A stretch of DNA of 64,000 nucleotides from Aeromicrobium sp. Sec7.5 (GTDB taxonomy: Bacteria; Actinomycetota; Actinomycetes; Propionibacteriales; Nocardioidaceae). The DNA is taken from the NCBI RefSeq assembly GCF_036867135.1, contig NZ_JBAJIJ010000001.1, positions 1,426,001 through 1,490,000 of the forward strand, written 5' to 3'. The notes beneath the pieces are model-generated. The model made no database searches, was not told the origin of the DNA, and was given only the letters and a program-made list of their open reading frames with translations. This document shows positions 1 through 13,195 of this stretch, piece after piece; position 1 is the first letter of the stretch; each line of letters opens with the position of its first letter. Both the position numbers and the translations under genes were made by a program.

Positions 1-847
1 TCTGGTTGATCTGGTCGGTGCCGGCCGCGACCTGGCCCGCACCGTCGGCGAGTCGCTGCGTATCCTGTGTGAGCGTGCTGGTCTGCGAGCGGAGCAGGCC
101 GAGGCCCGACGCGAGCTGCGCCACGGCGCCGTCGAGCTGCGCGGCCCCGTCGGCCAGCGCCCGGTTGCCGTCGGCGAGCTGCTGGGCCCCGGACTCGGCG
201 GCCGCGGTCCCGTCGGTGAGCTGGCGGGCACCGCCGGCCAGCTTCGCCGCACCGTCGGCAGCCTCCTGAAGCGAGGCGCGGATGTCGCTGAAGCCGAGGT
301 AGACGTTGTCGAGGTAGGTCTCGGTGACCTGGGCGTTCAGCGCCGTGCGGGCCGCGTCGAGGATGCGTTCGGCGATGGTGCCGTTGATGTAGTTCACGCC
401 GTCATTGGTGCGCAGGTCGAGCTGGCCCTGGACGGCCTCGGCCGGGTCGCCCGAGGTCGAGGTCGCGGCGGCCGAGAGGTTCGCGGGGATCGTGAGGACC
501 GCCTTGTACTCACCCGAGGCGAGCCCGTCCGAGGCGTCCTCGGCGTCGGTCAGGACCCAGTCGTAGTTCGACCCGTCGTCGTCACCGATCAGGTCGGCGG
601 CCAGGACCCGGCCGATCGCGACCGGCTGGGTCGTGCCGTCGGGGCCGGTGACCTCGACGATCTCGTCCTCGTTGACGACCGCGGCCCGCACCTGGTCGAG
701 GTTGCCGGTCGGGTCGAGGTTGGCCCAGATGTAGAGCGCCCCGTAGAGCAGCGGCACGATCGTCACCGCGACGACGGCCGCACGGGCGAGCCGACTGCGG
801 CGCAACCGCGCGAGCTCGAACCAGGGCAGGGATGGGGAGGGGATCAT
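1..847 (-). CDS. YhgE/Pip domain membrane protein (3' end off the window)
   Basis: Reading the minus strand from ATG at 847 gives an open frame of about 282 residues that continues past the left edge. Near the N-terminus (about residues 19-43) there is one hydrophobic segment (VVAVTIVPLLYGALYIW) followed by a large extracytoplasmic region, as in the YhgE/Pip family. From about residue 200 the chain turns into short repeats of the LADGxxxL / LAxGxxxL type, which is typical of the coiled part of this family. The C-terminal membrane helices expected for the family would lie outside the window. The ATG overlaps the TGA of the upstream MMPL gene by one base, so the two are probably translated as one unit. 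YhgE/Pip proteins are often encoded beside an ABC ATPase; here that ATPase is fused to the MMPL protein. Substrate is unknown. Confidence 0.85.
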   Translation of the reverse strand, partial: MIPSPSLPWFELARLRRSRLARAAVVAVTIVPLLYGALYIWANLDPTGNLDQVRAAVVNEDEIVEVTGPDGTTQPVAIGRVLAADLIGDDDGSNYDWVLTDAEDASDGLASGEYKAVLTIPANLSAAATSTSGDPAEAVQGQLDLRTNDGVNYINGTIAERILDAARTALNAQVTETYLDNVYLGFSDIRASLQEAADGAAKLAGGARQLTDGTAAAESGAQQLADGNRALADGAAQLDGAVAQLASGLGLLRSQTSTLTQDTQRLADGAGQVAAGTDQINQ

Positions 848-3726
848 CACAGCATCAGCTCGTCGAGGGTGCGGGTGGTGTCCAGCTCCACCAGGTGGAG
901 GCGGTCGGACGGCGGGGGTGCGGAGCTCGGTGACACGACGCTCGCGACGAGCGAGGTGCCCGAGTCCTCGAGGAGGTGGTCGAGCGCGTCCCAGAGCAGG
1001 GACAGGTCGTCGCCGATGCGCAGGTCGTCGGCGCCGTCGAGCACGACGATCCGGGGTGATTCCTGCAGGGCGAGCACGACGCCCAGGACCGTGCGCTGGA
1101 GAGGGGTGAGGCGCCCGACGGGGACCGTGCCCTCGACCGACCCGTGGGGCACGCCGCGGACGGCGTGGGCGTGGGCGAGCGATCGGTCCAGCTGCTGGCG
1201 CACCGGGGCGATCCTGGACCGGCTGACCCAGAGCCCGAACCGGCGGATCGACAGGCGCTCGGCAATGTGCTGGTCGACGGTCAGGTTGACGTCCAGGTCG
1301 TTCAGACCGGCCATCTCGGCCAGGGCGACCGATCGACGGACGGCGCGGGACTCCTGGGGAATCAGGTACCCGTTGACCCGCAGTCGTCCCTGGTCGTAGC
1401 CCATGCGCCCGGCGATGGTCAGCAGGAGTGCGGTCTTGCCCGATCCGCTCGGGCCGTGGACGACGAGCCAGTGGTGCTGCGGCAGGTCGATCGCGACGTC
1501 GTTGAACACCGGTCCGCGGGGGCCGGTCGTGGTCAGCCCGGCTGCGGTGACGGCGGCGGTGGAGTCACGCCGGGGCCAGGACTGCAGCTCGACCCGGCGG
1601 TGCAGAGCCTCGCCCTCGACGTCGATGTGGGGCAGGACCCGCTCGAGCCGCTTCGGCAGGCCCCACGACCGGTTGCCGAAGAGCTGGAGGACCGCAGGCG
1701 CGAAGAGCATCCGGATCAGGAACGCGTCGACGAACACGCCGATCGCGAGCGCGAACGCGATGGGCTTGATGTTCGGGTCGCCGTCGGGCACGAAGGCGGC
1801 GAACACCGCGAGCATGATGATCGCGGCGGCGGTGACGACCCGAGAGCTGCCGACGAACCCGTCGACGATCGCCCGGTGGGGGTCGCCCGTGCGGACGTAC
1901 TCCTCCTTCATGCGCGACATGAGGAAGACCTCGTAGTCCATCGACAGCCCGAACAGCACGGCCATGAGGATGATCGGCAGGAAGCTGATCAGGGGTCCGG
2001 GGGAGTCGAGGTTGACGAGCGGGCCCAGCCAGCCCCACTGGAAGACGGCCACGACGGCACCGAAGGAGGCGCCGGTCGAGAGCAGGAAGCCCAGCGTCGC
2101 CTTCAGTGGCACGACCAGGCTGCGGAACACGATCAGCAGCAGGAGCACCGAGAGGCCGACGACGACGATGCCGAAGGGGACCAGGGCCGACTCGAGGCGG
2201 TCGGAGATGTCGATGCCGCCGGCGGTGAGGCCGGTGACCTGGACGCTGACCCCGTGCTCCTCCTCCCAGCCGGGCGCGAGCTCGCGAAGCCGGTCGACGA
2301 GGTCGTGCGTCGCCTCGGCATCGGGCCCGGAGGTGGGGAAGACCTGGATGACGCCGGTGTCGCCGGTCGGGTTGGGGGTCGAGAGGCCGATGGCGGACAC
2401 TCCGTCGAGACGGCGGATGTCGGACGTGACGTCCTCGACGACCCCGAGCGGGTCGGTCGAGGTGATGAGGTCGGCCGTGACGAGCAGGGGTCCGTTGAAG
2501 CCGGGACCGAAGTGCTCGTCGATCAGGTCGAACGCCTGGCGCTGGGTCGAGTCGTGCGGCGCGGAGCCGTTGGTGGGCAGGGCCAGACGCAGGTCGGGCG
2601 CCGGGATCGTCGTGATCGCGAGACCGACGACGATCAGGACGATCGCGGTCTTGGGGAACCGGATCACGGCCTGCACCCAGCGCCGCGAGAAGGCGCCCGC
2701 TGCGTGCTCGCGGTCGGGCGCCAGTCGCTCGCCGGCTCGGCCCAGCATCGCGGGGAGAAGTGTCAGGGCGACGGCGACTGCCACGACGACCGCGAAGGCG
2801 GCGACCAGGCCCATCACCGTCAGGAACGGGATGCGGGCGATGCTCAGTCCCACGAGGGCGATGACCACCGTGACCCCGGCGAAGACCACGGCCGAGCCGG
2901 CCGTGGCCGTCGCGCGTGCCGCTGCCTCGTCAGGTGGCACCCCCTCGCCCAGGAGCTCGCGGTGGCGCGACACGATGAAGAGGGCGTAGTCGATCCCGAC
3001 CGCGAGGCCGATCATCAGGGCCAGCAGGGGCGCGGTGCTCGAGATCGTGACGAACCCGGTCGCCGCGAAGGTGAGGCCGACGGCCACGATCACGCCCGCC
3101 AGGGCCGTGACGATCGGGATGACGGCGGCGCGCAGCGAGCGGAACATCAGGAACAGCACGATGAAGGCGATCACGACCCCGAAGATCTCCACGATCGACA
3201 GCTGCGGTCCGGTGCTGGTGAAGACGTCGCCGCCGAACGCCGTCGTGTACCCGGCCTCGTCGAGATCGGTCGAGGAGGCGACGAGCTCGTCCTTGGCCGA
3301 CGGGTCGACCGCCTCCAGGCCGACGTTGAACTGGACCAGCACCTGGGCGGCCTCGCCGTCGGGCGAGACACCGACGTCGTTGCCGTCGGCGTAGGGGGAG
3401 ACGACCTCGGTCACGCCGTCGATCGCGCCGATCTCGTCGACCACGGCCTCGACGAGCAGCTGGGTGCGGGCGTCGTCGACCCGGCGTCCCTCCGGAGCCA
3501 CGACCACCAGGGTCGCTCCCGCGCCGCTCAGCTCGGGGAAGGTCCGGTCGAGCGCGTTGATCGCTTCCTGCGACTCGGTGCCCGGGATCTCGAAGGAGTC
3601 GCGCGTGCCGTCGCCGAGCGCGGCGGCGGCTGCGCCGACCGCGATGATCGCGGCGACCCAGAGCAGGACCACGCGACGGTGGTGGTCGTACGCCCAGCGT
3701 CCCAGGCTGTAGAGGAAGGTCGACAC
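847..3726 (-). CDS. MMPL/RND-family exporter with C-terminal ABC-like ATPase domain
   Basis: This is a 959-residue protein. Residues 1 to about 730 have the MMPL layout: one N-terminal helix, an extracytoplasmic loop, a helix bundle (about 180-340), a second loop and a second bundle (about 510-690). After a linker, residues about 735-959 form a nucleotide-binding domain with a Walker A motif GPSGSGKT at 758-765 and a Walker B-like IVVLD near 893-897. The domain is degenerate: GADD follows the Walker B aspartate where a canonical ABC has EP, and the LSGGQ signature is replaced by VGRLTPLQR. MMPL pumps are normally driven by proton motive force and carry no ATPase. The likely job is export of lipid or a hydrophobic compound together with the YhgE/Pip protein. 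Start GTG 3726 is supported by a -10 hexamer ending 6 nt upstream. Confidence 0.88.
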   Translation of the reverse strand: MSTFLYSLGRWAYDHHRRVVLLWVAAIIAVGAAAAALGDGTRDSFEIPGTESQEAINALDRTFPELSGAGATLVVVAPEGRRVDDARTQLLVEAVVDEIGAIDGVTEVVSPYADGNDVGVSPDGEAAQVLVQFNVGLEAVDPSAKDELVASSTDLDEAGYTTAFGGDVFTSTGPQLSIVEIFGVVIAFIVLFLMFRSLRAAVIPIVTALAGVIVAVGLTFAATGFVTISSTAPLLALMIGLAVGIDYALFIVSRHRELLGEGVPPDEAAARATATAGSAVVFAGVTVVIALVGLSIARIPFLTVMGLVAAFAVVVAVAVALTLLPAMLGRAGERLAPDREHAAGAFSRRWVQAVIRFPKTAIVLIVVGLAITTIPAPDLRLALPTNGSAPHDSTQRQAFDLIDEHFGPGFNGPLLVTADLITSTDPLGVVEDVTSDIRRLDGVSAIGLSTPNPTGDTGVIQVFPTSGPDAEATHDLVDRLRELAPGWEEEHGVSVQVTGLTAGGIDISDRLESALVPFGIVVVGLSVLLLLIVFRSLVVPLKATLGFLLSTGASFGAVVAVFQWGWLGPLVNLDSPGPLISFLPIILMAVLFGLSMDYEVFLMSRMKEEYVRTGDPHRAIVDGFVGSSRVVTAAAIIMLAVFAAFVPDGDPNIKPIAFALAIGVFVDAFLIRMLFAPAVLQLFGNRSWGLPKRLERVLPHIDVEGEALHRRVELQSWPRRDSTAAVTAAGLTTTGPRGPVFNDVAIDLPQHHWLVVHGPSGSGKTALLLTIAGRMGYDQGRLRVNGYLIPQESRAVRRSVALAEMAGLNDLDVNLTVDQHIAERLSIRRFGLWVSRSRIAPVRQQLDRSLAHAHAVRGVPHGSVEGTVPVGRLTPLQRTVLGVVLALQESPRIVVLDGADDLRIGDDLSLLWDALDHLLEDSGTSLVASVVSPSSAPPPSDRLHLVELDTTRTLDELML

Positions 3727-3811: not shown

Positions 3812-4408
3812 TCAGGCGTTCCGCGCGATGCCCTCGTCGGGACGCAGCAGCGTGTCGGGCACGGGACATCCGGTCAGGACGGCGTCCATCCGCGTGGAGA
3901 TCGGCTCGCCGTCGACCTCGGGCTCCTCGAAGAGCGCGCTCGGGTTGCTCCGGAGCTCCGCGACGTAGTCGTCGCGCGCCTCGACCAAGCGGTCCCAGTC
4001 ATCGAGCCAGTCGTCGAAGGGCTCGTCCGAGGCGCGCAGGTCGGCGTCGATCTCGCGCCAGGAGGCGACGACATCGCGCACGACGGCGGTCTGGGCCTCG
4101 ATGCGGTTGGGCCGGTCGACGTCGAGCCCGTCGACCGAGACGGGCTCGACACCCGCGGCCATCGTGCTGCACCCCGCGTCGACGGCGTCCACGATCTGCG
4201 GCTCGTCGATCGAGACACGCAGGTCGGAGCTGCCCGCGACGACGAGGGTCACGACGAGAGCCACGATCGCGATCGTCGCCGCGACGCCCCCGCCGATCGC
4301 CACCCAGAGCCAGCGACCCGACACCGGCGGTGGCGGGAACCGCCACGCGTCGTGCGCAGGGGGATAGGGCGGCAGCGGATCGACCACCGGGCCATGGTGC
4401 CACGCCAT
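3812..4408 (-). CDS. Hypothetical one-helix exported/membrane protein
   Basis: The 198-residue product begins with a proline-rich cytoplasmic stretch of about 30 residues, followed by a single strong hydrophobic segment (about 33-58, VAIGGGVAATIAIVALVVTLVV) and an acidic extracytoplasmic domain of about 140 residues. Two cysteines in that domain (in the GCST and TGCP contexts) could form a disulphide. I recognise no family. It sits between the MMPL gene and the divergent miaA, and its start is only 26 bp from that of miaA, so the promoters of the two genes must overlap each other's coding sequence. Confidence 0.6.
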   Translation of the reverse strand: MAWHHGPVVDPLPPYPPAHDAWRFPPPPVSGRWLWVAIGGGVAATIAIVALVVTLVVAGSSDLRVSIDEPQIVDAVDAGCSTMAAGVEPVSVDGLDVDRPNRIEAQTAVVRDVVASWREIDADLRASDEPFDDWLDDWDRLVEARDDYVAELRSNPSALFEEPEVDGEPISTRMDAVLTGCPVPDTLLRPDEGIARNA

Positions 4409-4434
4409 CGGTGCGGCGGTGCGAGGATGGCGCC

Positions 4435-5361
4435 ATGGGACGGGTCGATCACGTCGTGGCCGTGGTGGGACCCACCGGGGTCGGCAAGTCCGACCTGGCG
4501 ATCGACCTGGCGGTGCGCCTCGGCGGCGAGATCATCAGCACCGACGCCTACCAGCTGTACCGCGACCTCGACATCGGCACGGCCAAGACCCCGGTGGCCG
4601 ATCGCCGCGGGGTCCCGCACCACCTCCTCGACGTGCTCGACCTCGCCGAGGCGGCCTCGGTCGCCCAGTTCCAGACCGCAGCGCGGCGCGCGATCGACGA
4701 CTGCCGGGACCGTGGGGTCGTGCCGGTCGTGGTGGGCGGGTCGTCGCTGTACGTCCGTGCGGTGCTCGACGACCTCGACTTCCCCGGCACCGATCCCGCG
4801 GTGCGCGCGCGCTGGGCGCAGCGCCTGGACGAGATCGGGTCCTCGGCCCTGCACCGGGACCTGGCCGAGCGGGACCCGGAGGCAGCCCGGCAGATCCTTG
4901 CCTCGAACGGACGCAGGATCGTCCGCGCGCTCGAGGTCGTCGAGCTGACGGGCCAGCCGTTCCGCGCGCACATGCCGGCCTACGAGTCGGTCATCGGCCC
5001 GGTCGCGATCGTGGGCCTCGCGGCACCTCGGGACGTGCTCGACGCGCGCCTCGCCGCTCGGGTGGACGCGATGTGGGAGGCGGGCTTCGTCGACGAGGTC
5101 CGGGCGCTCGCCGCGCGTGGACTCGCCGAGTCACGCACGGCCTCGCGCGCGCTCGGGTACGCCGAGGTGCTCGACCTGCTCGCCGGACGGGTCGACGAGC
5201 AGCAGGCGCGCGAACGCACCGTGCTCGGCACGCAGCGCTTCGCCCGACGTCAGGAACGGCTGTTCGGCAAGGATCCGCGGGTGCAGTGGCTGCCGCACGA
5301 CGCCCCGGACCTGACCGACCGGGCCCTCGCCGCCGCGTCGCGTCCACACCCTCCGGCCTAG
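4435..5361 (+). CDS. miaA: tRNA dimethylallyltransferase
   Basis: MiaA transfers a dimethylallyl group to N6 of A37 in tRNAs that read codons starting with U. The 308-residue protein has the N-terminal P-loop GPTGVGKS (residues 12-19), the DxYQLYRDLDIGTAKT motif after the loop, and the PHHLLDVLD segment typical of the family. Length is normal. ATG 4435 places the P-loop at the expected distance; the nearby ATG at 4427 is out of frame. It is followed 9 bp later by dapF and then hflX, a common actinobacterial order. The tRNA-Leu(CAA) in this window reads UUG and would be a substrate. Confidence 0.95.
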   Translation: MGRVDHVVAVVGPTGVGKSDLAIDLAVRLGGEIISTDAYQLYRDLDIGTAKTPVADRRGVPHHLLDVLDLAEAASVAQFQTAARRAIDDCRDRGVVPVVVGGSSLYVRAVLDDLDFPGTDPAVRARWAQRLDEIGSSALHRDLAERDPEAARQILASNGRRIVRALEVVELTGQPFRAHMPAYESVIGPVAIVGLAAPRDVLDARLAARVDAMWEAGFVDEVRALAARGLAESRTASRALGYAEVLDLLAGRVDEQQARERTVLGTQRFARRQERLFGKDPRVQWLPHDAPDLTDRALAAASRPHPPA

Positions 5362-5364
5362 ACT
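5359..5364 (+). promoter_or_regulatory. Internal -10 element for leaderless dapF
   Basis: TAGACT ends 6 nt before the dapF ATG. Its first three bases are the TAG stop codon of miaA, so the terminator codon of one gene is also part of a likely promoter for the next. No convincing -35 is seen. Confidence 0.4.
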
Positions 5365-5370
5365 GGACGG

Positions 5371-6216
5371 ATGCACCTGACCTGGCTCAAGGGACACGGC
5401 ACGGAGAACGACTTCGTGCTGCTGCCCGACCACGACGGCCAGGTGCTGGGCGACCTCGACCCGGCCCTCGTGGCCGGTCTGTGCGACCGCCACCGTGGCC
5501 TCGGCGCCGACGGCGTGCTCCGGGTCGTCCGCACCGAGGCGATCGAGGTCGGTCCCGGCCTCGACCTCACCGGCGCGGAGTGGTTCATGGACTACCGGAA
5601 CGCCGACGGCTCGGTCAGCGAGATGTGCGGCAACGGCGTTCGCGTCTTCGCGCGCCACCTCCTCCAGGAGGGACTCGTCGACCCCGCCGCCCCGGTGGCG
5701 GTCGGCACCCGTGACGGCGTCAAGGTCGTGACGGTCGTCGGCGACGACCTCCGGGTCGACATGGGCCCCTTCGTGGTCGGCGACGTCTCCGAGATCACGG
5801 TCGGCCAGCACGCCTGGAAGGCGCGGGAGGTGCACACCGGCAACCCGCACGCGGTGGCCTTCGTCGACGCCGTCACCGACGCCGGACCGTTGCTCGAGCA
5901 GCCCGGCTACGACGCGAGCGTCTACCCCGACGGTGTCAACATCGAGTTCGTCGAGCGGATCGGCGAGCGGCACGTCGCGATGCGCGTCCACGAGCGCGGA
6001 TCGGGCGAGACCCGCTCGTGCGGCACGGGCGCCTGCGCCGTCGGCGTCGCCGCCGCACTCGCCGACGGAGCGCTCCCCACGGCCGACGCTCCGGTGCGTT
6101 ATCGCATCGACGTGCCCGGGGGCACGGTGCACGTCGAGTGGACGGCCGACGACCACCTGGTGCTGGAGGGGCCCGCCGTCATCGTGGCCGCGGGCGAGAT
6201 GGAGTGGCGCGCATGA
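5371..6216 (+). CDS. dapF: Diaminopimelate epimerase
   Basis: DapF interconverts LL- and meso-diaminopimelate, the last step before lysine and the source of the peptidoglycan cross-linking residue. The 281-residue protein has both catalytic cysteines: Cys86 in MCGNGVR and Cys217 in SCGTGAC, the pair that acts as acid and base. The start KGHGTENDFV matches the family N-terminus. The stop codon overlaps the hflX ATG (ATGA), so dapF and hflX are translationally coupled. Confidence 0.95.
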   Translation: MHLTWLKGHGTENDFVLLPDHDGQVLGDLDPALVAGLCDRHRGLGADGVLRVVRTEAIEVGPGLDLTGAEWFMDYRNADGSVSEMCGNGVRVFARHLLQEGLVDPAAPVAVGTRDGVKVVTVVGDDLRVDMGPFVVGDVSEITVGQHAWKAREVHTGNPHAVAFVDAVTDAGPLLEQPGYDASVYPDGVNIEFVERIGERHVAMRVHERGSGETRSCGTGACAVGVAAALADGALPTADAPVRYRIDVPGGTVHVEWTADDHLVLEGPAVIVAAGEMEWRA

Positions 6217-7646
6217 GCAGGGCCGACATCGACCGTGAAGTCACCGAGGTCTCCGTCGAGCCGGTTCGCGAGGACAGCAGGCCCGAGGAGATCGGCCAGG
6301 AGCTCGCCGAGCGCCAGTCGCTGCGTCGTGTCGCCGGCCTGCGGACCGAGCTCGAGGACATCACCGAGGTCGAGTACCGGCAGCTGCGCCTGGAGCGTGT
6401 CGTGCTCGTGGGCGTCTGGACCGAGGGCAGCGCCGAGGACGCCGAGAACTCCTTGGCCGAGCTCAAACTGCTCGCGGAGACCGCAGGGTCAGAAGTCCTC
6501 GACGCGATGATCCAGCGTCGGTCGCGACCGGACCCGGCCACGTACATCGGCAGCGGCAAGGTCGCCGAGCTGCACGAGATCGTGGAGGCCACCGGAGCCG
6601 ACACCGTGATCTGCGACGGCGAGCTGGCGCCGAGCCAGCTCCGCAACCTCGAGGACCGGGTCAAGGTCAAGGTCGTCGACCGGGTCGCCCTGATCCTCGA
6701 CATCTTCGCCCAGCACGCCAAGAGCGCCGAGGGCAAGGCCCAGGTCGAGCTCGCCCAGCTGCAGTACCAGACGCAGCGTCTCCGGGGCTGGGGCGGCAAC
6801 CTGTCGCGCCAGGCCGGCGGACGTGCTGCCGGCGGCGAGGGCATCGGCGGTCGAGGCCCCGGCGAGACCAAGCTCGAGACCGATCGCCGACGCATCCAGG
6901 CCAAGATGGCCAAGCTGCGCCGTGAGCTCGCGCACCTCAGCACGACCCGCGACACCAAGAAGGCCAACCGCCGTCGTCATGAGGTGCCGTCGGTCACGAT
7001 CGCCGGCTACACCAACGCTGGCAAGTCCAGCCTCCTGAACCGGCTCACGGGCGCCGGCGTGCTCGTGGAGGACGCCCTGTTCGCCACGCTCGACCCCACG
7101 ACGCGCCGCACCGAGACCTCCGACGGACGGGTCTACACGCTGTCGGACACCGTCGGGTTCGTGCGGCACCTCCCGCACCAGCTGGTCGAGGCGTTCCGAT
7201 CCACGCTCGAGGAGGTCGGCGACGCCGACCTGGTGCTGCACGTCGTCGACGGCTCCCACCCCGACCCCGAGGGTCAGCTGGCGGCCGTGCGCGAGGTGTT
7301 CGCCGACATCGAGGCGATCGACGTGCCGGAGATCGTCGTGGTCAACAAGGCCGACGAGGCCGACCCGGTGGCGCTGGCCCGCCTGCTGACCCGCGAGCCG
7401 CACGCGGTCGTCGTCAGCGCTCGCACGGGCGAGGGCATCGACGAGCTGCTCGGCGCGATCGAGGCCGACCTGCCCCGCCCCGCCGTGCAGGTCACGCTGG
7501 TCCTGCCGTACGAGCGCGGCGACCTGCTCAACCAGATCCACACCTCGGGCGACATCGAGACCATCACCCACGAGGCCGACGGCACCCATGTCGTCGCACG
7601 CGTGGGGGAGCAGCTCGCGCACGAGCTGGCCGACTACACCGTCTGA
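6213..7646 (+). CDS. hflX: Ribosome-associated GTPase HflX
   Basis: HflX is a GTPase that binds the 50S subunit and splits stalled or stressed ribosomes. This 477-residue form has a short N-terminal extension, the HflX N-domain (from about residue 60, including DPATYIGSGKVAEL), a helical linker with the glycine-rich GRGPGETKLETDRRRI segment, then the G domain with G1 GYTNAGKSS (about 265-273), G3 DTVGFV and G4 VNKAD. ATG 6213 overlaps the dapF stop. The gene ends 19 bp before a convergent minus-strand gene, with no obvious terminator between them. Confidence 0.94.
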   Translation: MSRADIDREVTEVSVEPVREDSRPEEIGQELAERQSLRRVAGLRTELEDITEVEYRQLRLERVVLVGVWTEGSAEDAENSLAELKLLAETAGSEVLDAMIQRRSRPDPATYIGSGKVAELHEIVEATGADTVICDGELAPSQLRNLEDRVKVKVVDRVALILDIFAQHAKSAEGKAQVELAQLQYQTQRLRGWGGNLSRQAGGRAAGGEGIGGRGPGETKLETDRRRIQAKMAKLRRELAHLSTTRDTKKANRRRHEVPSVTIAGYTNAGKSSLLNRLTGAGVLVEDALFATLDPTTRRTETSDGRVYTLSDTVGFVRHLPHQLVEAFRSTLEEVGDADLVLHVVDGSHPDPEGQLAAVREVFADIEAIDVPEIVVVNKADEADPVALARLLTREPHAVVVSARTGEGIDELLGAIEADLPRPAVQVTLVLPYERGDLLNQIHTSGDIETITHEADGTHVVARVGEQLAHELADYTV

Positions 7647-7665
7647 CGTCCTCTGCCGCCGAGCG

Positions 7666-8445
7666 TCAGCGACCGCTGCCCTCCAGCGTGCCGGTGACGT
7701 CGTCCCGGGCCAGCACGACGCAGCTGATGGCACGGTCGTCGTACTTCCACGACTGGATCGTCGGGTAGTAGTAGCTGAAGTCCAGGTCGGAGTCCTCGTA
7801 CGACTGGCCGACCCAGGGCTCGAACGCTGCGTAGCACCCCTCGTCTGCCAGGTCCCAGATGTCGGACTCGGCCGGGTAGTCGCCGTCATCGAGGTCGAAC
7901 TCGTGGAAGACCTCGGCGTTGTGCGGCTCGTCGCACGGAGTCGCGGACACGGTGTAGACCTCATCCTCGCCGCTCCCGAGGTCCTCGGAGAAGCAGTCAC
8001 CGACCTGCAGGTCCTCGGCGAAGACCTCGCCCTCGGACGTGACCTCACCGTCGTCGTCACGATCGGCCGGTGCCAAGGCGATGACGAGGACCGCGGCGAC
8101 GACACTGGCGATGATCCACACCACGACGATGACGATCGACGCCCACGCCATGCCGCGTCCACGGCGCCGGCCGTCATTCGGGCCTGCGAGCACCAGGATC
8201 GCGAGCACGACCGAGACGATCCACGAGATGCCGCACAGCGGAAGGATCGCGAGCACCAGGGCCCAGACGGCCTTGGTCCGCGAGCTGTCGGCGTCGTCGC
8301 CGTGGGGCGGCATCCCCGACGGGATGGGCGGGTAGGCGGGGTACCAGTGCTGCGGCGGGTAGCCCGGGGGTCCCTGGGGCGGCGTCTGCACGGGCTGGCC
8401 GAACGCATCGCGGTCGGGGCCGCCGGGCGGCGGGGCGTCGGTCAC
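7666..8445 (-). CDS. DUF4190 / septum-formation-like membrane protein
   Basis: The protein (259 residues from GTG 8445) starts with a long proline/tyrosine-rich cytoplasmic segment, then has two or three hydrophobic helices of the DUF4190 type (AVWALVLAILPLCGISWIVS and a second around IVIVVVWIIASVVAAVLV). It ends in an extracytoplasmic domain with VGDCF, CDEPHNAEV and further cysteines, the pattern of the actinobacterial 'septum formation' domain. I chose GTG 8445 because an AGGA sits about 10 nt upstream and because the longer open frame to 8685 would overlap gltB. Role is not established; association with the cell envelope is inferred. Confidence 0.7.
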   Translation of the reverse strand: MTDAPPPGGPDRDAFGQPVQTPPQGPPGYPPQHWYPAYPPIPSGMPPHGDDADSSRTKAVWALVLAILPLCGISWIVSVVLAILVLAGPNDGRRRGRGMAWASIVIVVVWIIASVVAAVLVIALAPADRDDDGEVTSEGEVFAEDLQVGDCFSEDLGSGEDEVYTVSATPCDEPHNAEVFHEFDLDDGDYPAESDIWDLADEGCYAAFEPWVGQSYEDSDLDFSYYYPTIQSWKYDDRAISCVVLARDDVTGTLEGSGR

Positions 8446-8656
8446 GGGCTGCGGTCCTGTCGAAGGAGAAGGATGCTGTACGGAGGCACAGGTTCGGGAC
8501 AGGGTAGGGCCGGCAGGGGCCACCGCGGGGCGAATCATCGGGGATGAGGCGAGCCTGATTCGTCGGCGTGTCGGCCACGTGTCATGATGGACTGCTGCCG
8601 CGGCCAACGTCGTCCACGGAATGCACGACTTGTCGACGACGCTGAAGGGGACTCTT

Positions 8657-13187
<4,531 letters not shown>

Positions 13188-13195
<8 letters not shown>

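Follow-up and report, generated by a model that had tools for sequence, protein, structure and literature searches.

The locus described here raises the question of why a pump of the MMPL/RND superfamily should carry at its C terminus a domain with the fold of an ATP-binding cassette (ABC) ATPase, uniting in one polypeptide two superfamilies of transporters that draw on different sources of energy, and why its gene should be followed by one for a YhgE/Pip membrane protein. The fusion gene and the 5' part of the YhgE gene occupy the first 3,726 nucleotides of the window, the 64,000-nucleotide stretch of Aeromicrobium sp. Sec7.5 that was analysed (contig NZ_JBAJIJ010000001.1, positions 1,426,001 to 1,490,000). 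The reading that we favor, with a probability of about 0.6, is that the fusion protein and YhgE make up a single export apparatus, powered by the MMPL half, with the ABC half serving as a docking part. On this reading YhgE/Pip, a widespread family, gains a concrete partner and an export role that can be tested.

The association of the three components is the principal evidence. In genome searches, where a fusion was scored when an MMPL match extended past query residue 780, the fusion was found in 30 of 49 Aeromicrobium genomes; all 30 have YhgE, 6 more have YhgE but no fusion, and no YhgE was found at E ≤ 1e-20 in 13, several of which are incomplete assemblies. Counts outside the genus are lower bounds because just the best 2 to 17 candidates per genome were scored: at least 3 of the 130 genomes searched in family f18 (E ≤ 1e-165), at least 7 of the 396 drawn from across the phylum (E ≤ 1e-140), for family f37 at least 96 of 150 with a match reaching into the tail (E ≤ 1e-130), and for its genus g70 at least 55 of 59 (E ≤ 1e-100). 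We tentatively take f18, f37, and g70 to be Pseudonocardiaceae, Microbacteriaceae, and Microbacterium, respectively; the f37 count indicates that the arrangement is common. Searches of plasmids with the ABC part and of viruses with the fusion gave no match and no relative, respectively. The set of fused loci compared below numbers 76 (30 from Aeromicrobium, 3 from f18, and 43 from f37) from 75 genomes in three families, with five loci that duplicate Aeromicrobium entries (L100-L104) counted once.

A same-strand YhgE frame lies directly downstream in all 76, its first aligned residue falling between −90 and +39 nucleotides relative to where the fusion frame ends in 75 loci and at −589 in the remaining one, to judge by coordinates L125, whose frame includes a stretch of masked sequence, whereas no YhgE was found near any of 20 tail-less MMPLs within the fetched flanks, mostly 3–4 kb on each side and shorter for L156. 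It should be noted that these 20 were picked non-randomly from high-scoring matches and that three come from the genome of the window itself. The first-pass annotation of the sequence, which had identified YhgE/Pip as the next gene, left it to be seen whether such a gene always follows this kind of fusion, and in this set it does. The comparison makes it very probable that MMPL, tail, and YhgE cooperate and unlikely that they are coincidental neighbors in an operon. In a midpoint-rooted tree of 56 MMPL domains, which covers 36 of the 76 fused loci and has some long branches, the 36 fused domains form one clade (bootstrap 100; Shimodaira-Hasegawa-like approximate likelihood ratio test 99), which points to a single fusion event.

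In the window, the start of the YhgE gene overlaps the stop codon of the fusion by 4 nucleotides, and the assignment of its product is supported by scores above the cut-offs of TIGR03061 (3e-41, 140.8 bits; cut-off 96.15) and TIGR03062 (1.6e-59, 201.1 bits; cut-off 102.2). Its C-terminal half is ABC-2-like (ABC2_membrane_3, 3e-17). Five stretches of Leu-x-x-Gly heptad repeats (TIGR03057) are also present in the protein (L009:8814-10850).

The MMPL half carries the marks of its superfamily. Its domain scores 301.6 bits (8e-90) with Pfam MMPL, for which the curated cut-off is 20.5, its best matches among solved structures are MmpL3 chains (for example 6n40, E 2.1e-43), and it has paired Asp-Tyr residues in two central helices, which we take to be the proton relay of MmpL3-like pumps. 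In the 36 fused MMPLs that the tree includes, both aspartates and Tyr598 are invariant and Tyr247 is present in 35; the second pair can be recognized in all 76 fused frames, in 75 by its motif and in L128 as MDYH. MmpL3-type exporters share the fold family and both Asp-Tyr pairs with the window protein, but the score of the latter with the MmpL3 model (170.9 bits) is far below the cut-off of 1400 and, to our knowledge, MmpL3 has neither an ABC-fold tail nor a YhgE partner.

The C-terminal tail of the window protein has an ABC fold, but its motifs are not those expected of a functioning ATPase. Residues 742–897 match Pfam ABC_tran (3.7e-9, 37.7 bits; cut-off 25), an AlphaFold2 model of the C-terminal 238 residues, made with nine relatives, has a mean predicted local distance difference test (pLDDT) score of 89.7, and Foldseek identifies the model as an ABC ATPase fold, with 1211 PDB matches at E ≤ 0.001 and 4yer as the best (template modeling score 0.72). 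The ABC fold that the first-pass annotation had proposed for this region is borne out, as are its intact Walker A, its missing canonical signature, and GADD in place of the EP of DEP. The signature position reads LTPLQ rather than LSGGQ, the Walker B-like strand ends in DGADD, with Asp897-Gly898-Ala899-Asp900 at the position of DEP, and no H-loop His was found at the corresponding position in the alignment, nor in any of the relatives among the alignment rows shown, except L063.

This loss extends across the fused loci. The pattern LS[GA]GQ is present in none of the 76 tails, and the Walker B Glu in none of the aligned fused rows or rows of non-canonical free-standing relatives. Walker A is kept in 27 tails (25 from Aeromicrobium and 2 from f18), among which the P-loop is strongly conserved, and absent from 49 (5 from Aeromicrobium, 1 from f18, and all 43 from f37); L087 and L166, false matches to the Walker A pattern, are included in the latter. 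All 49 still adjoin YhgE, and in 21 of them the columns of the signature region are gaps in the alignment, much of the helical and signature region being gone. On the MMPL tree, the rows lacking Walker A lie in f37 and in a minor Aeromicrobium group, with Walker A-bearing rows between them, a split that suggests at least two losses.

What remains of these tails is nevertheless recognizable. A pairwise profile comparison by hhalign, run without a negative control on 27 of the 49 (L125 was left out), aligned them with the P-loop set and the ABC domain at 93.9–98.9%. Their best-kept stretch corresponds to residues 772–803, after the P-loop helix, together with Trp717 of the linker, which is Trp in all 27 tails with Walker A and in 45 of the 49 without it. 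In contrast, none of six such tails scored above the Pfam ABC_tran cut-off: L046, L083, and L085 had no match up to E 1, L080 had a sub-threshold match to ABC_tran (E 0.047), that of L087 was at chance level (0.13), and that of L088 was to another family, RNaseH_pPIWI_RE (8.5e-4). Ordinary annotation would therefore miss the arrangement.

Free-standing relatives of the tail place its degeneracy in a wider context. All 24 non-canonical free-standing ABC genes that were mapped, 14 obtained through an ABC match and 10 through YhgE, adjoin YhgE, and neither LSGGQ nor the Walker B Glu is present in any of them; the position of the Walker A Lys is occupied by Arg in 11, His in 10, and Lys in 3. These counts exclude L047 and L048, canonical ABC proteins with LSGGQ and DEP for which no YhgE was found, and four additional ABC-YhgE pairs, from Kineococcus with Lys (L105-L107) and Mycobacterium sp. 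with Arg (L108), were counted separately, since the pattern used to find them was biased toward a Walker A Lys. The profile of the tail family matches that of 10 free-standing rows at 100%. These actinobacterial pairs resemble the window system in ABC family, motif loss, and YhgE partner but differ in not being fused to MMPL. Since the free-standing relatives are degenerate too, sequence comparison indicates that the degeneracy of the tail arose before the fusion, or is at any rate not specific to it. The loci form a natural series, from a degenerate free-standing ABC protein through a fused tail with a P-loop to a fused tail without one, with YhgE beside each one examined. Ten Aeromicrobium genomes contain a free-standing ABC and YhgE pair with His (GHT) for the Walker A Lys (L089-L098, at about positions 4000–7000), and in four of these genomes it coexists with the fusion.

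The tails, although degenerate, appear to be under constraint. In 17 close pairs the ratio of nonsynonymous to synonymous substitution rates (dN/dS) of the tail is 0.07–0.48, including seven pairs without Walker A (0.15–0.45, with a tail dS near 1 in two), and in all 17 the MMPL side and the tail side of the joint both give values below 1. Distances among 72 of the 76 loci (L125 was left out, and three more were dropped by a filter on YhgE length) show that the tail diverges with YhgE (rank correlation 0.82; partial correlation 0.72 given MMPL, a value reached in 0 of 999 permutations) more closely than with its own MMPL (0.59; partial 0.21). The order is the same, but weaker, in 22 Aeromicrobium loci with a P-loop (partial correlations of 0.42 with YhgE and 0.15 with MMPL).

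What has been kept is the proton relay, part of the tail, and YhgE, and what has been lost are the parts that would burn ATP; the simplest model is a proton-driven MMPL pump that docks on YhgE through the tail. We infer the coupling, the energy source, and the substrate as follows. Proton flow through the Asp-Tyr pairs of the MMPL half would drive the export or hand-over of a hydrophobic envelope substrate. The C termini of RND proteins are cytoplasmic, and the tail is taken to be so as well. It would occupy the site of an ABC ATPase on YhgE, an ABC-2-type membrane protein, and thereby hold pump and YhgE together, and conformational changes in one may be transmitted to the other with no need for ATP hydrolysis. 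The Walker A retained in the main Aeromicrobium group may still bind a nucleotide, which would then have a structural or regulatory role. A more tentative extension is that YhgE is now driven by the MMPL pump in place of an ATPase, the eroding ABC domain being retained solely as a transmission or docking piece; the result would be an exporter of the ABC type that has dispensed with ATP. The exported substrate is perhaps lipid-like. In Saccharopolyspora hirsuta exposed to cholesterol, a YhgE gene (F1721_04135) and an MMPL gene with the neighboring tag (F1721_04140) are up-regulated 3.82- and 3.33-fold, respectively (PMC9782250), a response that would fit a lipid-linked role of the fusion should this MMPL carry the tail.

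Several observations weigh against the docking model. The physical contact of the fusion with YhgE is a proposal from sequence; a full-length AlphaFold2 model was poor (pLDDT 55) and was not used, so that no placement of the domains was taken from it. Of the 30 Aeromicrobium tails, 25 have Walker A, which is strongly conserved among them, indicating that nucleotide binding matters at least in this genus, and ATP might be hydrolyzed with the help of a non-canonical base. Also, in the Aeromicrobium P-loop subset, the direct partial correlation between MMPL and YhgE (0.65) exceeds that between tail and YhgE (0.42).

These points bear on two other explanations. The tail could still hydrolyze ATP, slowly or in a non-canonical way, with the fusion driven by both ATP and proton flow; this would account for the intact, strongly conserved P-loop of the window protein and its 27-member set, and the ABC fold is well predicted, but the absence of the signature, the catalytic Glu and, with the single exception given above, the H-loop His, the loss of Walker A from 49 of 76 relatives that retain YhgE, and the replacement of the Walker A Lys by Arg or His in 21 of the 24 free-standing partners make it distinctly unlikely. 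The first-pass annotation had envisaged pump, ATPase, and YhgE/Pip protein acting as one export machine, perhaps for an envelope lipid; the cooperation of the three stands as very probable, but the role of the tail as the ATPase part does not, in view of the same losses in the fused tails. Alternatively, the tail could be a nucleotide-sensing or stabilizing cytoplasmic regulator of MMPL, with YhgE merely co-expressed and serving a separate role, for example one associated with the envelope or secretion. MMPL proteins such as MmpL3 can have C-terminal cytoplasmic domains, retention of Walker A without catalytic residues fits sensing, and the direct MMPL-YhgE correlation in the Aeromicrobium subset is in its favor; it is rendered doubtful by the presence of YhgE beside every fused locus, by the divergence of the tail with YhgE and not MMPL across the 72 loci, and by the kinship of the tail with the ABC genes adjoining YhgE. 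An erroneous junction of two genes in sequencing or assembly, the frameshift that the first-pass annotation had named as a risk, is refuted, the chance of it being negligible: the fusion is uninterrupted in the Aeromicrobium genomes, matches reach into the tail throughout much of f37, the dN/dS values on either side of the joint are below 1, and no point in support of an artefact was found.

Among known systems, the DrrABC exporter, in which DrrB and DrrC are ABC-2-type parts, offers a partial parallel. The RND pump MmpL7 and DrrABC serve one lipid route in Mycobacterium, the export of phthiocerol dimycocerosate (PMC11539658), so that the likeness lies in transporters of the RND and ABC types working on the same route; however, DrrABC is separate and its signature residues were probed as functional, whereas the ABC domain of the window protein is fused and degenerate, and the window system has no separate ABC ATPase with catalytic motifs. 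The YhgE of the window shares TIGR03061 and TIGR03062 with the YhgE/Pip and EsaA/YueB membrane proteins, but its match to the EsaA N-terminal profile (T7_esaA_Nterm, 9.7e-12) is below the cut-off. Those of Firmicutes have been described in phage adsorption or as part of type VIIb secretion, and the available text of that source does not mention an MMPL partner (PMC4999554). No description of an MMPL-ABC fusion was found in the accessible parts of the open-licence literature searched.

Table. Positions of the fusion gene, its parts, and associated genes (window coordinates unless a locus is given).
Feature	Coordinates	Strand	Remarks
MMPL-pseudoABC fusion gene	847..3726	−	One intact, uninterrupted open reading frame, 959 aa, GTG start
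MMPL/RND pump half, residues 1-715	1582..3726	−	Pfam MMPL; nearest solved structures are MmpL3 chains
First Asp-Tyr pair, D246-Y247	2986..2991	−	Expected proton relay; aligns with DY of MmpL3
Second Asp-Tyr pair, D597-Y598	1933..1938	−	Aligns with MmpL3 pair
Linker SWPRRDST, residues 716-723	1558..1581	−	Trp717 is the most conserved column of tails lacking Walker A
Pseudo-ABC domain, residues 724-959	850..1557	−	Pfam ABC_tran, AlphaFold2, Foldseek
Walker A GPSGSGKT, residues 758-765	1432..1455	−	Intact in window protein
Walker B-like strand RIVVLDGADD, residues 892-901	1024..1053	−	From alignment; without catalytic Glu
YhgE/Pip gene, 5' part	2..850	−	Full 678-aa gene is L009:8814-10850 (−), extending past window edge
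TetR-like regulators	L041:8687-9379 (+), L046:2613-3209 (+), L050:8689-9270 (+), L056:2289-2945 (−), L059:6163-6804 (+)		By eye

The surrounding genes were assigned by eye. TetR-like regulators adjoin several of the fused and free-standing ABC-YhgE loci, as for inducible exporters. The frame for a 198-residue protein with one apparent membrane segment lies upstream of the fusion in the same orientation, 85 nucleotides away (3812-4408, −); a gene close to the fusion in L040 begins with the same PPYPPAxDAWxFPPPPV, and L041 and L042 have a looser form, LPDEDxWRY. The genes at 4400-13195 appear ordinary (miaA, dapF, and hflX, followed by gltB on the + strand), and miaB lies just past the YhgE gene.

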